NCBI GenBank assembly: GCA_017534835.1
Contig: JAFXVT010000056.1
Location: 1-55,505 of the forward strand
Length of the DNA: 55,505 nucleotides
DNA from: Ruminococcus sp.
GTDB lineage: Bacteria; Bacillota; Clostridia; Oscillospirales; Ruminococcaceae
Reading direction: 5' to 3'
In this document: piece after piece, positions 47,479 through 55,505 of the stretch
Layout: each line of letters starts with the position of its first letter
How positions within the stretch are numbered: the first letter of the stretch is position 1
Program-made: the position numbers and the translations under genes
Notes under the pieces: generated by a model
What the model saw: only the letters and a program-made list of their open reading frames with translations
The model's database searches: none
Told to the model about the DNA's origin: nothing

Positions 47479-48387
47479 CTATATGTTGAGATACGCCTTT
47501 ATCTCGCTGATATATATATCCGCCATCTCGCTGAGTATGACGTTTTTCAGCGTGATATAGCCGATCTCCATTATCTCGTCGGAATCGTCCTCGAACGGGA
47601 CAGCTATGTAATCGCTGCCGTTGAGTTCCTCGCAGATTATGCCGGAGCACAGTGTATATCCGTTCAGACCTATCATCAGATTCAGCATAGTTGCGCGGTC
47701 ATTCGCCTTTATGGTGCGCTGGTATTCAGCCGTGCTGAGCAGCTCCTCCGCGAGGTAGAACGTGCTGTTGTCGCCCTGCTCGAACGAAAGGCAGGGATAG
47801 TCCGCGAGCTGCGCGAAGGTTATCTTCTTCTCCTTCGCGAGCGGATGTCCCTTCCACAGATACACGTAGGGACGGCATTTCGTCAGGGTGTGGAACTCCA
47901 GTCCGTTTGAATTCAGCAGCTTTGTTATCGACTTGCGGTTGAAGTCATTGAGGTAGATGATGCCTATCTCGCTTCGCAGAGCGGCAACGTCGCTGATGAC
48001 CTCGCCTGTCTTTGTCTCACGCACAGCGAATTCGTACTCCGCCGTGTCGAACCTCTTCACCATTTCCACGAACGCCTTCACAGCGAACGAATAATGCTGC
48101 GTTGAGACTCCGAATTTCTTCTTGACATTGCCCTTGCCGATGTACTTTTCGGAAAGAACATCGAACTGTCCGACGACCTGCCGCGCATACTGCAAAAACT
48201 CTGCTCCGTCATTCGTGAGCGTAACGCCGCGTCCGCTGCGGTTGAAGATCTTTATCCCGATCTCACGCTCGAGCTCCTGCACTGACGCTGACAGCGAGGG
48301 CTGCGAAACATAGAGCTGTTCCGCCGCCTTGTTCATCGAGCCTGTCTCAGAGATCGCAAGTGTGTATTTAAGCTGCTGTAAAGTCAT
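47479..48387 (-). CDS. LysR-family regulator
   Basis: This 302-residue regulator has the N-terminal LysR helix-turn-helix (MTLQQLKYTLAISETGSMNKAAEQLYVSQPSLSASVQELEREIGIKIFNR) and an effector domain from about 90. Its sequence is close in style to the CmbR/CysR/MetR-type regulators of sulfur amino acid genes in Firmicutes. It is the last gene of the methyltransferase-mccB-mccA operon, starting ten bases after mccA. The 36-base operators at 44491-44526 and 47439-47474 are its likely targets, the nearer only five bases from its stop codon. Confidence 0.88.
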   Translation of the reverse strand: MTLQQLKYTLAISETGSMNKAAEQLYVSQPSLSASVQELEREIGIKIFNRSGRGVTLTNDGAEFLQYARQVVGQFDVLSEKYIGKGNVKKKFGVSTQHYSFAVKAFVEMVKRFDTAEYEFAVRETKTGEVISDVAALRSEIGIIYLNDFNRKSITKLLNSNGLEFHTLTKCRPYVYLWKGHPLAKEKKITFAQLADYPCLSFEQGDNSTFYLAEELLSTAEYQRTIKANDRATMLNLMIGLNGYTLCSGIICEELNGSDYIAVPFEDDSDEIMEIGYITLKNVILSEMADIYISEIKAYLNI

Positions 48388-48397
48388 ATCTTACCTC

Positions 48398-49309
48398 TCA
48401 ATCGTAAAGTCCTGTACTGAAATACCTGTCTCCGCGGTCAGGGAAAACAGTCACGATATTTCCCTTTGCACCGCTCTCAACGAGCTTCAGAACAGCTGCC
48501 ATAGCTGCACCCGAGGACGAGCCTGCGATAATGCCCTCCTTCGCCGCGAGCAGACGAGCCGTGCTGAATGCCTCCTCATCGTTCATTTTTATAACGCCGT
48601 CAACGAGCGACATATCCATCGTCTCGGCGATGAAATCGTTTCCGATACCCTCGATATTGTAATCGGCGTGCTCGCCGCCGCCCATCGTTGAGCCGACAGG
48701 GTCAGCGAGTATCCCCTTCGCACTGGGCACGCGCTCCTTGATATACCGCAGAATACCGGTGTAAGTTCCGCCGCTTCCGGCGCCTGCGACGACATAGTCG
48801 ATCTTGCCGTCGAGAGCCTCATATATCTCGCGTCCGGTAGTTTCGTAATGTGCGAGCGGATTGCTCTGGTTCTTGAACTGTTCAAGCGAGATCGAACCGG
48901 GTATCTGCGCCTTTATCTCCTCCGCCTTCGCAACTGCACCGAGCATTCCCTGCTCTCGCGGTGTGTTCACGACCTCCGCACCGAGTGCACGGAGCAGCGA
49001 CTGCTTCTCCGCCGAGAACTTCGTCGGCACAACGAAAATGATACGGTATCCGCGGTTGATGGCGGCAAAAGCAATGCCAAGCCCGGTATTTCCGGCTGTT
49101 GCCTCAACGATAGTTCCGCCCTTTTTCAGTAGTCCGCGCTGCTCTGCATCATTTATCATATAAAGCCCCGTGCGGTCCTTCACGCTTCCGGACGGGTTGT
49201 AAAGCTCAAGCTTTGCAAATATGTTCACGCCCTCCGCCTGCACGATATTGCCGAGTCTTACGAGCGGAGTGTTTCCGATGAGCGACTGCATTGAATCGTA
49301 GTAATTCAT
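48398..49309 (-). CDS. mccA: Cystathionine beta-synthase / cysteine synthase (MccA-like)
   Basis: The 303-residue PLP enzyme has LELYNPSGSVKDRTG with the PLP Lys, EATAGNTGLGIA, and the ending IVTVFPDRGDRYFSTGLYD. KFSAEKQSLLRALGA, GMLGAVAKAEEI and EGIGNDFIAETM resemble Bacillus MccA, which makes cystathionine from homocysteine and O-acetylserine, more than CysK. It overlaps mccB by four bases. The pair would perform reverse transsulfuration. A plain cysteine synthase activity cannot be excluded. Confidence 0.88.
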   Translation of the reverse strand: MNYYDSMQSLIGNTPLVRLGNIVQAEGVNIFAKLELYNPSGSVKDRTGLYMINDAEQRGLLKKGGTIVEATAGNTGLGIAFAAINRGYRIIFVVPTKFSAEKQSLLRALGAEVVNTPREQGMLGAVAKAEEIKAQIPGSISLEQFKNQSNPLAHYETTGREIYEALDGKIDYVVAGAGSGGTYTGILRYIKERVPSAKGILADPVGSTMGGGEHADYNIEGIGNDFIAETMDMSLVDGVIKMNDEEAFSTARLLAAKEGIIAGSSSGAAMAAVLKLVESGAKGNIVTVFPDRGDRYFSTGLYD

Positions 49310-50469
49310 CTCTGCACCTCCGCTTTTTCTATCGCCTGAGCGATGTCGGCAAGTATATCCTCAATGCTCTCGATGCCCACAGAAAGACGGATAAGTCCGT
49401 CTGTTATGCCGACTTTTTTGCGGATATCAGCCGGTATCGAAGCGTGTGTCATAGTTGCAGGATGGCAAACGAGCGACTCCACTCCGCCGAGGCTCTCCGC
49501 GAGCGAGACGAGCTCAAGGCTCTCGAAGAAGCGGCGTATATCGTAGTTTTCGTACAGCTCGAATGAGATCATCGCTCCTCCGTTTTTAGCCTGTCTGCGG
49601 TTGACCTCATAACCCTGACTGCTTTCGAGTCCGGGGTAGTAAACATTCTTCACAGCCTTGTGTGAAGCGAGAAATACTGCTGCTTTTTCTGCATTTTCAA
49701 CGTGTCTGTCCATACGCACTGCAAGAGTTTTTATACCGCGTATCAGCAGGAACGAATCAAAAGGACCAGCAACTCCGCCTGTCGAATTCTGGATGAATGC
49801 TATCTTCTCCGCAAGCTCCTTCGTGCTTACAACAGCAAGACCTGCGACAACATCGCTGTGTCCGCCGAGGTACTTGGTCGCGCTGTGAACGACTATGTCA
49901 GCTCCGAGCGAAAGCGGCTTCTGAAGGTAGGGCGTCATAAATGTGTTGTCCACAATGACGAGGAGCCCGTGTCTGTGCGAGACCTCAGCGACTGCACGAA
50001 TATCAGTGACAGTCATCAGCGGATTTGCCGGACTTTCGATAATGACTGCCCTAACATCATCTGTTATCTGGCTCTCAAAAACGGCAAGGTCTGTCGTATC
50101 TGCGATAGTATACGTTATCGAGAAATGGTTGAAGACCTTATCGAGGAGGCGGAAGGTACCGCCGTAAACATTGCTTGAAATGAGGACTCTGTCGCCGCTG
50201 TTGAGGAGGCTCAGTACAGCCGTAAGAGCTGCCATTCCCGATGCGAACGCGAATCCCGCATAGCCGCCTTCAAGGTCGTTTATCAGCGATTCAAGAGCCT
50301 CGCGTGTGGGATTTCCCGTGCGTGAATACTCGTATCCGCGCATTTTTCCGAGACCGTCCTGCTTGTAGGTCGAGGTCTGATATATCGGGATATTCACTGC
50401 TCCCGTGCGTTCGTCGATCGGGATACCTCCGTGGATAACTGCTGTTTCCGAATTTATATAGCTGCTCAT
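49306..50469 (-). CDS. mccB: Cystathionine gamma-lyase / gamma-synthase family (MccB-like)
   Basis: This 387-residue PLP enzyme has SSNVYGGTFRLLDKVF, DNTFMTPYLQKPLSLGADIVVHSATKYLGGHSDVVAG with the PLP Lys in SATKY, and SLGGVESLVCHPATMTHASIP. Directly beside an MccA-like gene the likely reaction is cleavage of cystathionine to cysteine. MetB and MetC activities are close relatives. Confidence 0.9.
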   Translation of the reverse strand: MSSYINSETAVIHGGIPIDERTGAVNIPIYQTSTYKQDGLGKMRGYEYSRTGNPTREALESLINDLEGGYAGFAFASGMAALTAVLSLLNSGDRVLISSNVYGGTFRLLDKVFNHFSITYTIADTTDLAVFESQITDDVRAVIIESPANPLMTVTDIRAVAEVSHRHGLLVIVDNTFMTPYLQKPLSLGADIVVHSATKYLGGHSDVVAGLAVVSTKELAEKIAFIQNSTGGVAGPFDSFLLIRGIKTLAVRMDRHVENAEKAAVFLASHKAVKNVYYPGLESSQGYEVNRRQAKNGGAMISFELYENYDIRRFFESLELVSLAESLGGVESLVCHPATMTHASIPADIRKKVGITDGLIRLSVGIESIEDILADIAQAIEKAEVQR

Positions 50470-50500: not shown

Positions 50501-51397
50501 TTATTCGTAGTTGTAGCCGGCTGTGAATGTCGCCGAGATGAGGCTCACATTCTCAAAGGCTCTCATACCGTCTGCTCTGCCGTCGAAATATTCCGACTGC
50601 ACCTTCTCAGGCGGCATATACGTATCTATCTGGAATCCGAGCGAATAGAGCGCACGCGAGACCTCGTTGTAATCGAATCCGCCGCGCATCACCTCGCCGA
50701 GCGACTCTGTGATCATCTCAAGGCGCTCGACTCTGCGAGGAAAATCGCCGGTCTTTATCGGGTAATCGAACACCACCTCACTGCCGAGCGAGGACAGCTC
50801 CGACATCTGCCGCAGAGTATCCGCAAACACGTCGAGCGTGAGATAGTAGGATACCCCGAGAATGCTGAAAAACGTCTTTTTTGACGGGTCGAAGCCGGCT
50901 TCGATGAGCTTGCCGCACATTCGCTCCTTCTCAAAATCGACCGGAACGAAGTGTACATTTTCCGGTATGTTCCACTCAAGCTCGCGTATCTTTTCGAGCT
51001 TGTAGCGCTGAGTATCGGGGTGGTCTATCTCGAATACGGTGATATTCTCATTCGTGTTGCGGAACGAAAATGTATCCGAGCCTGCGCCGCAGATAACGTA
51101 CTGTATCTCGCCGTTTTCCTCTGCAAAATCCGCAAGCCTCACCTCATTGAAATGAATGCGCGAAAGCGGTATCGGAGCGATATATTCGTTTATTATCTGC
51201 TCGGTGTCCTCGCGTGAAAACTCCTGCAAGCCGCCGAATCCGCTGCGTATAATACCATAGATGCTGTCATATTCTTCCCTGCCCATAAAATCGAATGCAA
51301 GGTAATCGTCAAATATCTTCTCGCGTGACCTGTTCGAGTGCCACGCTCTCACGAATGCGCAAAGCTTAGCTGTTATGCTTTCTCTTTCACTTACCAT
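50501..51397 (-). CDS. SAM-dependent methyltransferase, LCMT/TIGR00027-like
   Basis: This 298-residue protein has a SAM site VICGAGSDTFSFR, an acidic strand end TVFEIDHPDTQRYK and VHFVPVDFEKERM, characteristic of the leucine carboxyl methyltransferase-like branch. ATG 51397 follows GGAGG. It is the first gene of the mccB-mccA operon. In Bacillus the mccAB operon also opens with a methyltransferase gene (yrrT) of a different family, linking it to SAM recycling. The substrate is unknown. Confidence 0.85.
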   Translation of the reverse strand: MVSERESITAKLCAFVRAWHSNRSREKIFDDYLAFDFMGREEYDSIYGIIRSGFGGLQEFSREDTEQIINEYIAPIPLSRIHFNEVRLADFAEENGEIQYVICGAGSDTFSFRNTNENITVFEIDHPDTQRYKLEKIRELEWNIPENVHFVPVDFEKERMCGKLIEAGFDPSKKTFFSILGVSYYLTLDVFADTLRQMSELSSLGSEVVFDYPIKTGDFPRRVERLEMITESLGEVMRGGFDYNEVSRALYSLGFQIDTYMPPEKVQSEYFDGRADGMRAFENVSLISATFTAGYNYE

Positions 51398-51413: not shown

Positions 51414-51440
51414 CAAAAAATGCGCAGAACGCTGACGCAT
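51414..51440 (-). terminator. Attenuator terminator before the methyltransferase operon
   Basis: ATGCGTCAG-CGTT-CTGCGCAT on the minus strand, one bulge, followed by six Ts (plus-strand A-run 51415-51420). It sits between the leader peptide and the first gene. Confidence 0.8.
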
Positions 51441-51469
51441 CCCACGCATGACTCTACTGCCGATGAAAA

Positions 51470-51559
51470 TTACGATAAGGCGCAACATCGCTGAGCATAA
51501 GTACGCAGAATACGTTCATTGTCCATTATACACATACAACAACACATCATATTCATCAT
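51470..51559 (-). CDS. Met/Cys-rich leader peptide of the mccBA operon
   Basis: A 29-codon frame starts MMNMMCCCMCIMDNE and ends RCCALS. It has six Cys codons (6-8, 10, 25, 26) and six Met codons, within only 29. AAGGAG (51571-51576) is eleven bases upstream of the first ATG. The consensus promoter is at 51614-51642 and an attenuator terminator at 51414-51440. The gene products make cysteine from methionine-derived homocysteine, so stalling at Cys or Met codons when those amino acids run short would be a direct sensor. Composition and placement make chance unlikely; translation remains to be shown. Confidence 0.8.
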   Translation of the reverse strand: MMNMMCCCMCIMDNERILRTYAQRCCALS

Positions 51560-51613
51560 TATGTTCAGCACTCCTTCCTCATTATTCACTGTATTCCTAT
51601 CGGAACAATATGT

Positions 51614-51642
51614 ATTATATCACTCTTATCACTCTCTGTCAA
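51614..51642 (-). promoter_or_regulatory. Promoter of the leader-mccBA operon
   Basis: Perfect TTGACA (51637-51642) and TATAAT (51614-51619) with a 17-base spacer, minus strand. Start predicted near 51607. Confidence 0.8.
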
Positions 51643-52697: not shown

Positions 52698-53515
52698 AAT
52701 ACCACCTCATCTCCGCCGATACGCTCGGCAACATCTGTGTTGAGCAGAGAGAGCAGTCTGTTGCGGAATCTTCCGTACTCGTCAGTTTTCACGAGCTCTG
52801 AACGGCTGCGCGGACGCTCAAAGGGTACATTCACTACCTCGTTCACAGTTCCGGGATGAGCAGTGAGAACTACTATCTTGTCTGAAAGCAGTATCGCCTC
52901 GTCGATGTCGTGTGTTACGAAAACGACCGTCTTGCGCTCTTCAGAGCCGTCGCCCTCCCAGAGCGAGAGCAGGAGCTCCTGCAAGATAACGCGGTTTTTC
53001 GGGTCGATGGCACTGAACGGCTCATCCATCAGCAGTATCTCCGTATTCATCGCAAGCGCACGTGCGATAGCTGCACGCTGCTGCATTCCGCCTGAAAGCT
53101 GCGAGGGATACTTGCTTCCGGAGTCTGCAAGCCCCACCTTTGCGAGAAATTCGTCGGCTATCTTCGCGCGCTCACTGCGTCTAAGACCGTGGCGAGTCTG
53201 CTTGATGCCGAATTCGATGTTCTTTTTGGTGGTCATCCACGGGAACAGGGAGTAGTGCTGAAACACTACTCCTCGCTCTGTACCTGTTCCGTGAAGCTCC
53301 TTGCCGTCTATCTGCACCGAGCCGCCTGCCGGGGCGTAAAGCCCCTCAAGCACGCTCAGAAGAGTCGATTTTCCGCAGCCGCTCGCACCGATAACGCTGA
53401 CGAACTCTCCCCTTCCCACGCCGAATGAAACGTCGTGGAGAGCGTTGAAGCTGCGCTTGTTATCAATGTAATTGACTGTCAGGTCTCTTATCTCTATCTT
53501 ATTCGTAGTCATCAA
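52694..53515 (-). CDS. ABC transporter ATPase, SsuB/TauB type
   Basis: This 273-residue ATPase has Walker A GASGCGKST, signature LSGGMQQRAAIARAL, Walker B LLMDEPFSAID and the H-loop VTHDIDEA. DEPFSAID is typical of the nitrate/sulfonate/taurine subfamily. It overlaps the binding-protein gene. Confidence 0.92.
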   Translation of the reverse strand: MMTTNKIEIRDLTVNYIDNKRSFNALHDVSFGVGRGEFVSVIGASGCGKSTLLSVLEGLYAPAGGSVQIDGKELHGTGTERGVVFQHYSLFPWMTTKKNIEFGIKQTRHGLRRSERAKIADEFLAKVGLADSGSKYPSQLSGGMQQRAAIARALAMNTEILLMDEPFSAIDPKNRVILQELLLSLWEGDGSEERKTVVFVTHDIDEAILLSDKIVVLTAHPGTVNEVVNVPFERPRSRSELVKTDEYGRFRNRLLSLLNTDVAERIGGDEVVL

Positions 53516-54698
53516 AATGCTCCTTTAATGATGTATAAATGTCATCGCTGCCCTCAGCTAAAATGCTGTCGAGAGCCTTCTTGTAGAGTTCTGTATTATA
53601 GTGCGACTCAATGTCGAAATCTTCAGTGTAGCCGAGCTCAACGATAGTCTCCTTGAGTGTTGCAGTACCCTTCTTGTCGGGGTCGGGGCTCGATACGCTG
53701 TAGCCGCCGTAAACCTCTGTTTCGATGAATTCCTCATCAATATCGATATACTTCTTGACGTCCTTGATAGTCTTGTCGTGATCGGTCTGGGTGAAATGGT
53801 AAGCCTTGATGAAGGCACGCTCAAGAGCTGTGAACGTATTGGGATTCTCGCTCAGAGCAGCAGTTTTTGCGACCTGACGGCAGCACGGCTGATTCTCGAG
53901 AGCCTTTTCATGTGCGCAGTAGTAAACGACCTTGTAGCCCTGCGACTTTGCGAGCGAAGCATACGGTGAGTAGACCGAAGCTGCGTCGATAGTGCTGTTG
54001 AGAAGTGCCGCATATGCGTCCTTCTGGCTGTCGAAGTAAACGATGTTGACCTTGTCCTCGCCTTCACCTATCTCAATGCCTGCATCGCGGAGAAGTATCT
54101 GCAATTCCGCATCCTGTACGCTGTTCTTGACAGAAGCAACGTTCCTGCCCTTGAGCACCTGAACGCCCTCCTCGTCCTTTTCAGCGAATTCAGACTTGAT
54201 GACATAGCCGTGACCGTTCGTCATCGCACCGCCGAAAACGGATATTTCATGTCCCTGGCTCGCGAATGTGAGAGTCGGTACTGAGCCGATGAAAGCAACA
54301 TCGAGCTTATCGGATTCGAGACCGTTCACAAGCTCGGAAGCGCTCGAAAACTGTGTGAGAGTGACATTGAGTCCCTCCTCCTTGAAGTAGCCCTCCTCCT
54401 GTGCAACGAAAGCAAGAAGGTGTGCAGTTGAGTTGAGGTAGCCGATATTGATGTCAGCCTTCTCGGGCTTTCCGACAGCAGCCGCAGCGTCATCTCCGCA
54501 GCAGTCTGCCGGCTCTGAGCAGCAGTCAGAGCTCTTGTCCTCGCAGCAGTCCTTTGTAGTGTCCTCGGAAGCAGCGTCCTCTGCAACGGGTGCTGCTGTT
54601 GATGATTTAGAGCTTTCGGAGCTGTTATTGAAAGCTCCGCAGCCTGTAAGCAGCGAAAATGCTGCAAGTATTGATACGATCTTAGCCTTGTTATTCAT
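53499..54698 (-). CDS. ABC substrate-binding lipoprotein with Cys-Cys repeats
   Basis: The 399-residue product from ATG 54698 has a lipobox (LLTGC, Cys20), a linker with three Cys pairs at about 51-52, 59-60 and 66-67 (DCCEDKSSDCCSEPADCCGDD), then an NMT1/SsuA-like binding domain (about 83-399; INIGYLNSTAHLLAFVAQEEGYFKEEGLNVTLTQF). A later CC pair is in NQPCCRQ. The ribosome site AAAGGTG precedes the ATG. Cys-rich linkers are not usual in this family; they might bind metal or a thiol-reactive ligand. Substrate is unknown. Confidence 0.88.
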   Translation of the reverse strand: MNNKAKIVSILAAFSLLTGCGAFNNSSESSKSSTAAPVAEDAASEDTTKDCCEDKSSDCCSEPADCCGDDAAAAVGKPEKADINIGYLNSTAHLLAFVAQEEGYFKEEGLNVTLTQFSSASELVNGLESDKLDVAFIGSVPTLTFASQGHEISVFGGAMTNGHGYVIKSEFAEKDEEGVQVLKGRNVASVKNSVQDAELQILLRDAGIEIGEGEDKVNIVYFDSQKDAYAALLNSTIDAASVYSPYASLAKSQGYKVVYYCAHEKALENQPCCRQVAKTAALSENPNTFTALERAFIKAYHFTQTDHDKTIKDVKKYIDIDEEFIETEVYGGYSVSSPDPDKKGTATLKETIVELGYTEDFDIESHYNTELYKKALDSILAEGSDDIYTSLKEHFDDYE

Positions 54699-54731: not shown

Positions 54732-54794
54732 TCAGCGGAGAGAGTTTCTACATCGCATTCGCTCCGAAAAGGTGATATTTCTGCTGATATTCAT
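54732..54794 (-). CDS. Possible short upstream peptide of the ABC operon
   Basis: A 20-codon frame, starting MNISRNITFS and ending RCRNSLR, lies in the leader with AGGAG eight bases upstream. It has one Cys and five Arg codons and ends 34 bases before the binding-protein start. CGGAG...CTCCG within it can pair. There is no T-run terminator, so attenuation is less clear here. Confidence 0.35.
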   Translation of the reverse strand: MNISRNITFSERMRCRNSLR

Positions 54795-54826
54795 TATCAT
54801 CACTCCTGTATCATTTCTATGTGCTA

Positions 54827-55069: not shown

Positions 55070-55462
55070 CTTTGGATACACGCTCCCTGTGAATGGAGCG
55101 ACCGCTGCGGTACTACAGTCAGGAGACTACAAGCAAAATTTCAATCCACGCTCCCTGTGAAGGGAGCGACATGCTCTCAGGGCTATGCACATTTACAGCC
55201 CCGATTTCAATCCACGCTCCCTGTGAAGGGAGCGACGTATGGCTTTGCTATACTATTTTCCGTTGTTGTAATTTCAATCCACGCTCCCTGTGAAGGGAGC
55301 GACCAGTGCGTTATCATTTGTCCCGGCTGTAGGCGTGAATTTCAATCCACGCTCCCTGTGAAGGGAGCGACGGCGAGCCTTTTGATGTATCCAGTGCCGA
55401 TACCGAATTTCAATCCACGCTCCCTGTGAAGGGAGCGACTATAGAGCATAGTGAGCATACAG
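55070..55462 (-). CRISPR. Type I-C-like CRISPR array, leader-distal end
   Basis: Five identical 33-base repeats (55138-55170, 55204-55236, 55271-55303, 55339-55371, 55407-55439) and one degenerate copy with five changes (55070-55102). Spacers are 35, 33, 34, 35 and 35 bases; a sixth is cut at 55462 after 23 bases. Read on the minus strand, repeats start GTCGCTCCCTTCACAGGGAG and end GTGGATTGAAAT, the type I-C pattern. The degenerate repeat marks the old, leader-distal end, so leader and cas genes should lie beyond the right edge. Short frames across the array are not genes. Confidence 0.95.
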
Positions 55463-55505
55463 AGATCGGAAGAGCACACGTCTGAACTCCAGTCACATGC
55501 CGAAA
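55463..55505 (+). other. Illumina adapter sequence, not genomic
   Basis: From 55463 the sequence reads AGATCGGAAGAGCACACGTC and continues exactly as the TruSeq adapter through 55496, then ATGCCGAA, which looks like an 8-base sample index, and one A of the next adapter part. It interrupts a CRISPR spacer. The contig end should be trimmed. Confidence 0.97.

Follow-up and report, generated by a model that had tools for sequence, protein, structure and literature searches.

Organization of the locus

The window analysed here is a stretch of 55,505 nucleotides from a Ruminococcus contig. On its minus strand, a promoter, a short cysteine-rich open reading frame (ORF) and an intrinsic terminator lie in order before a set of genes for sulfur metabolism (Table 1). 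The first gene past the terminator encodes a methyltransferase (MT) and starts at 51397; it is followed by the mccB-like, cysK/mccA-like and LysR genes. An earlier note, made from the letters of the sequence, had described a promoter, ribosome site, 29-codon frame, terminator and operon, all of which were found again in their places, oriented along the minus strand. The best NCBIfam match of the mccB-like gene, PRK07671, scores 557 bits, below the cut-off of 594, and the cysK/mccA-like gene matches cysKM at 337 bits, below the cut-off of 344.

Table 1. Position of the leader elements and operon genes in the window
Feature	Position	Strand	Basis or detail
Promoter	51614..51642	-	-35 TTGACA 51642-51637, 17-nt spacer, -10 TATAAT 51619-51614
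Near-palindrome GTTCCGATAGGAATAC (TTCCGATAGGAA), early transcribed region after the -10	51591..51606	-	Strongly conserved, 16-leader alignment
Shine-Dalgarno (SD) of leader ORF, GGAAGGAG (AGGAAGGAG)	51571..51579	-	Sequence; conserved in 49-leader alignment A2
Strand 1 TGCTGAACAT, can pair with YAQR codons (ATG-CTCAGCG)	51561..51570	-	93.7% paired
Leader ORF MMNMMCCCMCIMDNERILRTYAQRCCALS, with stop	51470..51559	-	Cys-rich ORF retained in relatives
Control codons TGT TGT TGT ATG TGT (CCCMC), presumed stall site	51530..51544	-	Conserved in genus leaders
Antiterminator 5' strand CGTATTCTGCGTA / CGUAUUCUGCGUA (RILR codons + 1 nt)	51502..51514	-	13 pairs with 51448-51436
Conserved block GCTCAGCGATGTTGC (AQRCC)	51482..51496	-	Held at nucleotide level
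Antiterminator 3' strand = terminator 5' arm, TGCGTGGGATGCG / UGCGUGGGAUGCG	51436..51448	-	Mutually exclusive pairing
Intrinsic terminator, hairpin 51449-51420 + T run	51415..51449	-	Fold; covariation; relatives
SAM-dependent MT, LCM / TIGR00027 family, first operon gene	50501..51397	-	PF04072 1.6e-38; TIGR00027 2.1e-40
mccB-like cystathionine gamma-lyase / homocysteine desulfhydrase	49306..50469	-	PF01053
cysK/mccA-like PLP enzyme (cystathionine beta-synthase or cysteine synthase)	48398..49309	-	PF00291
LysR-type regulator	47479..48387	-	PF00126, PF03466

The promoter agrees with the consensus at 12 of 12 positions (TTGACA-17-TATAAT) and has a TG preceding its -10, and its -35 hexamer is invariant in 16 of 16 aligned leaders. 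The 29 codons of the leader ORF, MMNMMCCCMCIMDNERILRTYAQRCCALS, include six for Cys and six for Met. In the alignments, the window reads ATA where its orthologues start; its own ATG is one codon further downstream and lies 11 nt past the GGAG, compared with 8 in the orthologues. As in 49 leaders of the genus, a short ORF with a ribosome site is found between promoter and first gene, which is the arrangement of an attenuator, while the SD and an ATG located 55 nt past the end of the -10 of the predicted promoter distinguish it from leaderless upstream ORFs. A mechanical call of SD-preceded ORFs of 14-60 amino acids on both strands of the window gave 132, nine of them with at least four Cys. A terminator-like hairpin follows two of these nine, namely the leader (-19.1) and one other ORF where the hairpin is weak (-8.4). 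Taken as a single fold, the whole leader has an ordinary stability (z -0.79), making comparison with relatives the stronger test.

Two further elements flank the promoter. The near-palindrome GTTCCGATAGGAATAC is, by its letters, a possible operator or 5' hairpin. Its only exact copy in the genome is the window's own and the remaining matches all have three mismatches; as an operator shared with other genes it was rejected, having 24 genome matches at up to three mismatches against 44 for the reversed control. Locus L069 carries a perfect palindrome, TTCCTATAGGAA, at the position matching TTCCGATAGGAA. Upstream of the -35 (51642), the element CTATAAC-N-TATAG (CTATAAC-N-GAATATAG) is conserved in the 16-leader alignment. 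Both flanking elements are possible candidate operators and could provide a second layer of control.

Directly upstream of the leader, on the same strand, lies a transporter operon. It is preceded by a small ORF with a ribosome site, MIMNISRNITFSERMRCRNSLR (54738-54806, minus strand), close to whose promoter a ATACCTATGGGTAT-like palindrome is seen. This ORF was considered as a second Cys leader before the sulfonate transporter and dropped on account of its single Cys; a pattern for its CRNS motif matched one locus, in an unrelated frame, most loci ending short of that place. The SsuA-like binding protein (53502-54695, minus strand) contains a linker with three Cys-Cys pairs (DCCEDKSSDCCSEPADCCGDD), and 18 relatives found by pattern (L082-L150) have three such pairs in 15 cases, one pair in one and none in two. 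Towards the contig end, a CRISPR array (55071-55449) of six repeat copies around TTTCAATCCACGCTCCCTGTGAAGGGAGCGAC, spaced 66-68, has a degenerate first copy and is cut by the end of the contig. The last positions, 55463-55505 (AGATCGGAAGAGCACACGTCTGAACTCCAGTCAC...), are presumably Illumina adapter and thus contamination of the assembly.

Conservation within the genus

The MT protein occurs in 55 of 125 genomes of the genus, 51 of which have close orthologues (at least 76% identity, fragments included). A Cys-rich leader with a terminator is present in 49 of these 51. In G035 (L014/L112) the contig ends 148 nt upstream of MT and those 148 nt hold no leader; G078, an MT fragment at a contig edge, is outside the 49. 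Of the four more distant MT proteins, that of G079 (55% identity) is preceded by a Cys-rich ORF that differs from the 49 and is likewise followed by a terminator, and no Cys-rich leader was found upstream of those of G015, G132 and G096 (34-40%). A strict DNA pattern of the leader matched once per genome in 35 of the 125 genus genomes; reversed, it matched nowhere. The earlier note's reading depended on orthologous leaders having both the frame and the terminator, and it came through this comparison, the 49 leaders keeping both.

Within the 49 leaders, the number of Cys is five to eight, a CC or longer run falls within the first 18 residues in 48, and CCC occurs in 44. The terminator is present in all 49, after the ORF and before the first gene.

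Terminator, antiterminator and ribosome position

The terminator comprises 13 pairs, and the stretch containing it folds to -19.1 kcal/mol (z -3.57). Over the 49 leaders its helix is 92.4% paired with 41 double-changed cells, and double changes are seen in 10 of its 13 pairs. An alternative pairing, which the earlier note could not make out by eye, has now been located: 13 consecutive pairs join the RILR codons to the 5' arm of the terminator. In the window this antiterminator helix is unbroken when G-U pairs are counted. In alignment A2 of the 49 leaders, 88.8% of its cells are paired versus 23-76% for slid partners, a comparison that gives the helix some advantage since it was taken from the window's own sequence. 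Its covariation score of 0.272 was equalled by none of 500 shuffles, and both sides are changed in 6 of the 13 pairs, a count that 13 of 500 shuffles reached; kinship of the sequences can by itself exceed such shuffles. The duplex has a median of -17.9 kcal/mol in the 49 leaders against -11.8 in shuffles, and at most 5 of 100 shuffles were equally good in 35 of the 49. A terminator 5' arm that is complementary to two partners is a hallmark of attenuation.

The stretch of RNA not covered by a ribosome placed at chosen codons was then folded with an assumed footprint of 13 nt downstream of the start of the A-site codon. Before the 3' arm of the terminator is made, a ribosome positioned at the first N-terminal Cys gives a median antiterminator probability of 0.89 and one at the last gives 0.91, with 41 of 49 leaders above 0.5 at each stall. 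Once the ribosome has reached the C-terminal Cys or stop codon, the median at this stage falls to 0.00 and none of the 49 exceeds 0.5. With no ribosome, the early median is 0.42 (above 0.5 in 21 of 49) and the window's leader reaches 0.92. An untranslated leader can therefore also form the antiterminator early, and the early fold cannot tell it from a stalled one. At full equilibrium, the antiterminator exceeds 0.5 in 2 of 49 leaders without a ribosome, in 5 and 7 at the two stall positions, and in none at later positions; without a ribosome, the terminator holds in 46 of 49. Since the terminator prevails at equilibrium in most leaders even when the ribosome is stalled, the switch must be kinetic and depend on the order of transcription. 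The window's leader is among the better ones, with equilibrium antiterminator probabilities of 0.86 and 0.61 at the two stalls; its RNA folds into the antiterminator beyond a stalled ribosome and into the terminator once the ribosome is past the ORF. The earlier note had supposed that stalling prevents termination, and the folding agrees: before the 3' arm exists a stall favours the antiterminator, and passage of the ribosome abolishes it.

A conserved block near the end of the leader

Downstream of the first Cys cluster lies another conserved element, AQRCC. The peptide motif is present in 42 of 49 genus leaders and its DNA, CTCAGCGATGTTGC, is identical in 39 of 49, conservation extending to synonymous sites. 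Third-position heterozygosity in the block is 0.08-0.15, against which 8 fourfold sites of MT in 40 genus loci average 0.46, three of the five leader sites in this comparison being twofold. Being held at synonymous positions, the block points to a role as RNA. One possible partner, judged from complementarity, is the SD region, for which 93.7% of cells are paired over the 49 leaders with just 2 double-changed cells. An alternative SD pairing, AACAU with AUGUU, is 95.5% paired and shows zero covariation, and was set aside. It may be conjectured, with low confidence, that the block controls translation of its own leader. When the window's leader is folded early and untranslated, it is the antiterminator that prevails, not pairing of the AQRCC block.

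Leaders in other lineages

MT alignment A1 was compared against named genomes, giving 262 relatives of which the best 80 were used. Among these best 80 of 262, L079-L118 and L150 repeat the genus set and the other 39 are independent loci. A Cys-rich ORF stands before MT or mccB-mccA-MT in 32 of the 39 further clostridial loci; in Lachnospiraceae, it stands before mccB-mccA-MT. Six of the 39 (L143, L144, L145, L148, L151 and L157) have no leader, and one (L137) is at a contig end and cannot be judged. In the six leaderless loci, MT follows another gene that resembles an acyl-CoA ligase by eye; either the attenuator was lost there or control is exerted from further upstream.

These totals combine an automatic scan, which found leaders in 64 loci of the best 80, with eight added by eye: L124, whose terminator was missed by the script, L121, with four Cys and no CC, L127, and L134, L135, L152, L154 and L155, in which the leader is at the operon start. 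The sum is 72 of 80 with a leader, six with none and two contig ends (L112, L137). The eight additions are all among the 32 leaders of other lineages, and L147 was counted on a weak hairpin (-8.0). In L127 (3819-4001), the Cys-rich frame runs through the terminator hairpin to MT, unlike its relatives. Within this set the arrangement is specific to this operon. Over the 640,866 bases scanned on both strands of the best 80 of 262 loci, an SD-preceded ORF with CC, at least four Cys and a terminator lies no more than 400 nt upstream of MT in 64 cases, at the start of a mccB-mccA-MT operon in three and nowhere else. Of such ORFs without a terminator, one was upstream of MT and 32 stood elsewhere.

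Outside the genus, the leader peptides diverge widely (MKTMCCMLCCMN..., MTKLSANLNNILCCCCMLKTRAYSMAGVL..., MMRFVLCPCCCYRNN..., MRHEFRFFEDCCCCCYPKR...). In several of these lineages the codons after the Cys run match the terminator 5' arm, as in L138, where AACTCGGGCAT can pair with TTGCCCGAGTG. The region after the Cys run pairs with the 5' arm better than shuffles do, at the 5% level, in 10 of 29 leaders tested, a set from which L124 was dropped as the script called no terminator and in which the L052 hairpin looks mis-called.

More distant MT homologues were drawn from an order search (394 genomes) and a phylum search (398 genomes, 16 matches beside the own genome). Three of four loci from the order search with MT at 51-63% identity (L051, L052 and L017) have, upstream of MT, an SD-preceded ORF with CC and at least four Cys plus a hairpin, which is weak in L017 (-11.5); the fourth, L053, has a frame with three Cys (VCRCC) before a hairpin. 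The gene order in L051 and L052 is MT-luxS-mccB, luxS being assigned by NCBIfam in L051, and this order fits a route from SAM to cysteine. In the six loci with MT at 32-41% identity, MT is never preceded by the combination of SD, Cys-rich ORF and terminator. In L059 a hairpin is preceded by a frame that contains Cys and lacks an SD, and the single weak SD match in L055 (-8.6) is not upstream of MT. Two matches of the phylum search, L170 and L171, have scores typical of true orthologues; in L171 a short MKCICC... ORF is located, in an unusual order, after the terminator, and L170 has no Cys leader ORF. The other 14 phylum matches all lack a mccB motif within 1,500 nt, and an SD-preceded Cys-rich ORF with a terminator is missing upstream of MT in every one.

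Codon content and the likely signal

The earlier note had named stalling at Cys or Met codons without choosing between them. The Cys part holds up, in that Cys runs are conserved while much of the rest of the peptide varies between lineages; for the Met part there is no such support, some leaders of other lineages lacking Met beyond the start. Genus leaders contain two to seven Met, start included, and L141 (MTLELRNIRISALNNICCSACCKCSGGTLWLR) and L147, both from other lineages, contain none after the start. Since Met is lacking beyond the start in some leaders elsewhere, methionine sensing is not supported and cysteine is the likely signal.

The choice of Cys codon is also distinctive. Leaders use 243 UGU and 73 UGC, compared with 32 UGU and 85 UGC in the MT genes of 40 genus loci, 78 UGU and 181 UGC in 36 mechanically chosen ORFs of the window, and 20 UGC with zero UGU in seven operon and transporter genes. 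For the window's leader alone the ratio of UGU to UGC is 5 to 1 (Fisher's p 0.012). The UGU codons could heighten the sensitivity of the sensor.

Proposed mechanism and alternatives

The anatomy of the leader, its conservation, its covariation and its folding in different ribosome states together argue that this is, with high probability, a ribosome-mediated transcription attenuator of the classical type that would sense charged tRNA-Cys through its Cys codons. The leaders of relatives and the covarying antiterminator bear out the earlier note's proposal of leader-peptide attenuation at Cys codons, from which translation of the ORF, stalling and a response to cysteine may be inferred. Once RNA polymerase starts at the consensus promoter, a ribosome would enter the leader ORF. 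With ample cysteine it would pass CCCMC and cover or clear the RILR codons, and the freed terminator 5' arm would pair with the 3' arm to stop transcription. With little charged tRNA-Cys, the ribosome would halt at the first Cys cluster, and the RILR codons downstream of the stall could pair with the 5' arm as soon as it is transcribed. Read-through would then reach methyltransferase-mccB-mccA-lysR, whose products are expected to route sulfur from SAM and homocysteine to cysteine. The leader is most likely a brake on methionine-to-cysteine genes that is released under cysteine shortage.

Several other readings of the same elements were weighed. That methionine is sensed as well, with ribosomes stalling also at Met codons, is distinctly improbable. 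The six Met of the window's leader, the range of two to seven across the genus, a Met right after the Cys run in 45 of 49 genus leaders and the MKTMCCMLCCM-type leaders of another clade would suit it; set against this, L141 and L147 do without Met past the start, and a stall at Met would switch on a methionine-consuming pathway under methionine scarcity. It is very unlikely that the leader is an arrest peptide whose nascent chain, through its conserved YAQRCC end, stalls the ribosome on cysteine or another small molecule in place of a hungry codon. The recurrence of AQRCC in 42 of 49 genus leaders is what such a peptide might show, but its conservation at synonymous positions points to RNA, two orthologues read QRCY and one QRCR, the motif is mostly missing from leaders of other lineages, and a ribosome at AQRCC abolishes the antiterminator.

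Cys/Met-rich composition also occurs in metal ligands, which would be in keeping with the peptide itself being the product, as a metal-binding or modified Cys/Met-rich peptide with an incidental terminator. This is barely credible, as large parts of the peptide other than the Cys run vary freely between lineages, the same codons double as antiterminator and the ORF recurs before the same operon. A hairpin that merely insulates the operon from the transporter genes, leaving control to LysR or another DNA-binding protein, draws on the transporter operon just upstream on the same strand and on the conserved CTATAAC-N-TATAG and TTCCGATAGGAA flanking the promoter. It is highly improbable given that the terminator sits after the operon's own promoter and ORF, has a covarying antiterminator and is found also in loci with other genes upstream; control at the DNA level may operate alongside attenuation.

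A more elaborate version of the attenuator, unlikely as a whole, would gauge cysteine at two checkpoints and would have originated, or been remodelled, repeatedly in front of this operon. A stall at the first Cys cluster would turn the operon on, a ribosome at the C-terminal Cys pair would cover the antiterminator and lock the operon off, and the AQRCC block would pair with its own ribosome site and so control translation of the leader. As part of the same scheme, leaders of unrelated sequence in Oscillospiraceae and Lachnospiraceae would replace the cysteine T-box of Clostridium.

Comparison with known systems

Attenuation by leader peptides is classical for the trp, his and ilv operons. The Ruminococcus leader resembles these attenuators in having a short ORF with codons for the product, an antiterminator and an intrinsic terminator, with the stop before the first gene. 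It differs from them in its control amino acid, cysteine, in its hosts, Oscillospiraceae and Lachnospiraceae, in its target, a SAM/methionine-to-cysteine operon, and in an AQRCC block conserved at the nucleotide level and able to pair with the SD region. In Firmicutes, a Leu-rich attenuator is described for ilv-leu of S. aureus (PMC5794164) and regular leader peptides for hisS/hisZ (His) in bacilli (PMC2965389).

T-box or S-box control of the operon was considered and rejected: Rfam had no match in the window, and neither a T-box nor an S-box (SAM riboswitch) was found in a set of 42 further loci (10, 16 and 16; some of them distant MT homologues, the other 48 genus leaders lying outside this set). 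The window's own genome has 11 T-box matches, five above the family cut-off and none at the operon; several of them appear, by eye, to stand before tRNA-synthetase or trp/leuA-like genes. One own-genome match (L165), below the cut-off, lies before an aroB-like and then a cysS-like gene by eye. In Clostridium, the ubiG-mccBA(-luxS) operon of C. perfringens, C. botulinum and C. acetobutylicum carries a Cys T-box; that of C. acetobutylicum is described as incompletely functional, the leading role falling to antisense RNAs under S-box control (PMC2940859). The two systems share a methyltransferase-mccB-mccA operon, sometimes with luxS, tRNA-Cys charging as the presumed signal and premature termination as the output. 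They differ in that the T-box RNA binds the tRNA directly, whereas a ribosome on the ORF would read it in Ruminococcus, and in that the Ruminococcus methyltransferase belongs to the LCM/TIGR00027 family, unlike that of the ubiG-mccBA operon.

The literature search, which had little reach into subscription journals, found no cysteine leader peptide for Clostridia. Leader peptides with Cys runs and no terminators are reported for cys operons of Mycobacterium and P. acnes and the cbs operon of B. longum (PMC1262725), and mycobacterial polycysteine leaderless upstream ORFs reportedly respond to cysteine (Canestrari 2020, via PMC9094748 and PMC13236596). In the actinobacterial systems, too, genes for sulfur amino acids are preceded by an upstream ORF containing runs of Cys codons. 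The mycobacterial ORFs are leaderless and the leaders of PMC1262725 lack terminators in these descriptions, whereas the Ruminococcus leader has a 5' UTR, an SD, a terminator and an antiterminator.

The principle is already known, and what is new is the combination of amino acid, lineage and target. The many leaders of unrelated sequence and common codon content offer material for how attenuators arise, and a regulatory ORF in front of an important sulfur operon, with luxS in some relatives, can now be sought in rumen and gut anaerobes. Compared with the Clostridium T-box, the leader appears to be a natural sensor swap, in which a ribosome on a polycysteine ORF would read tRNA-Cys and both target and signal are kept.
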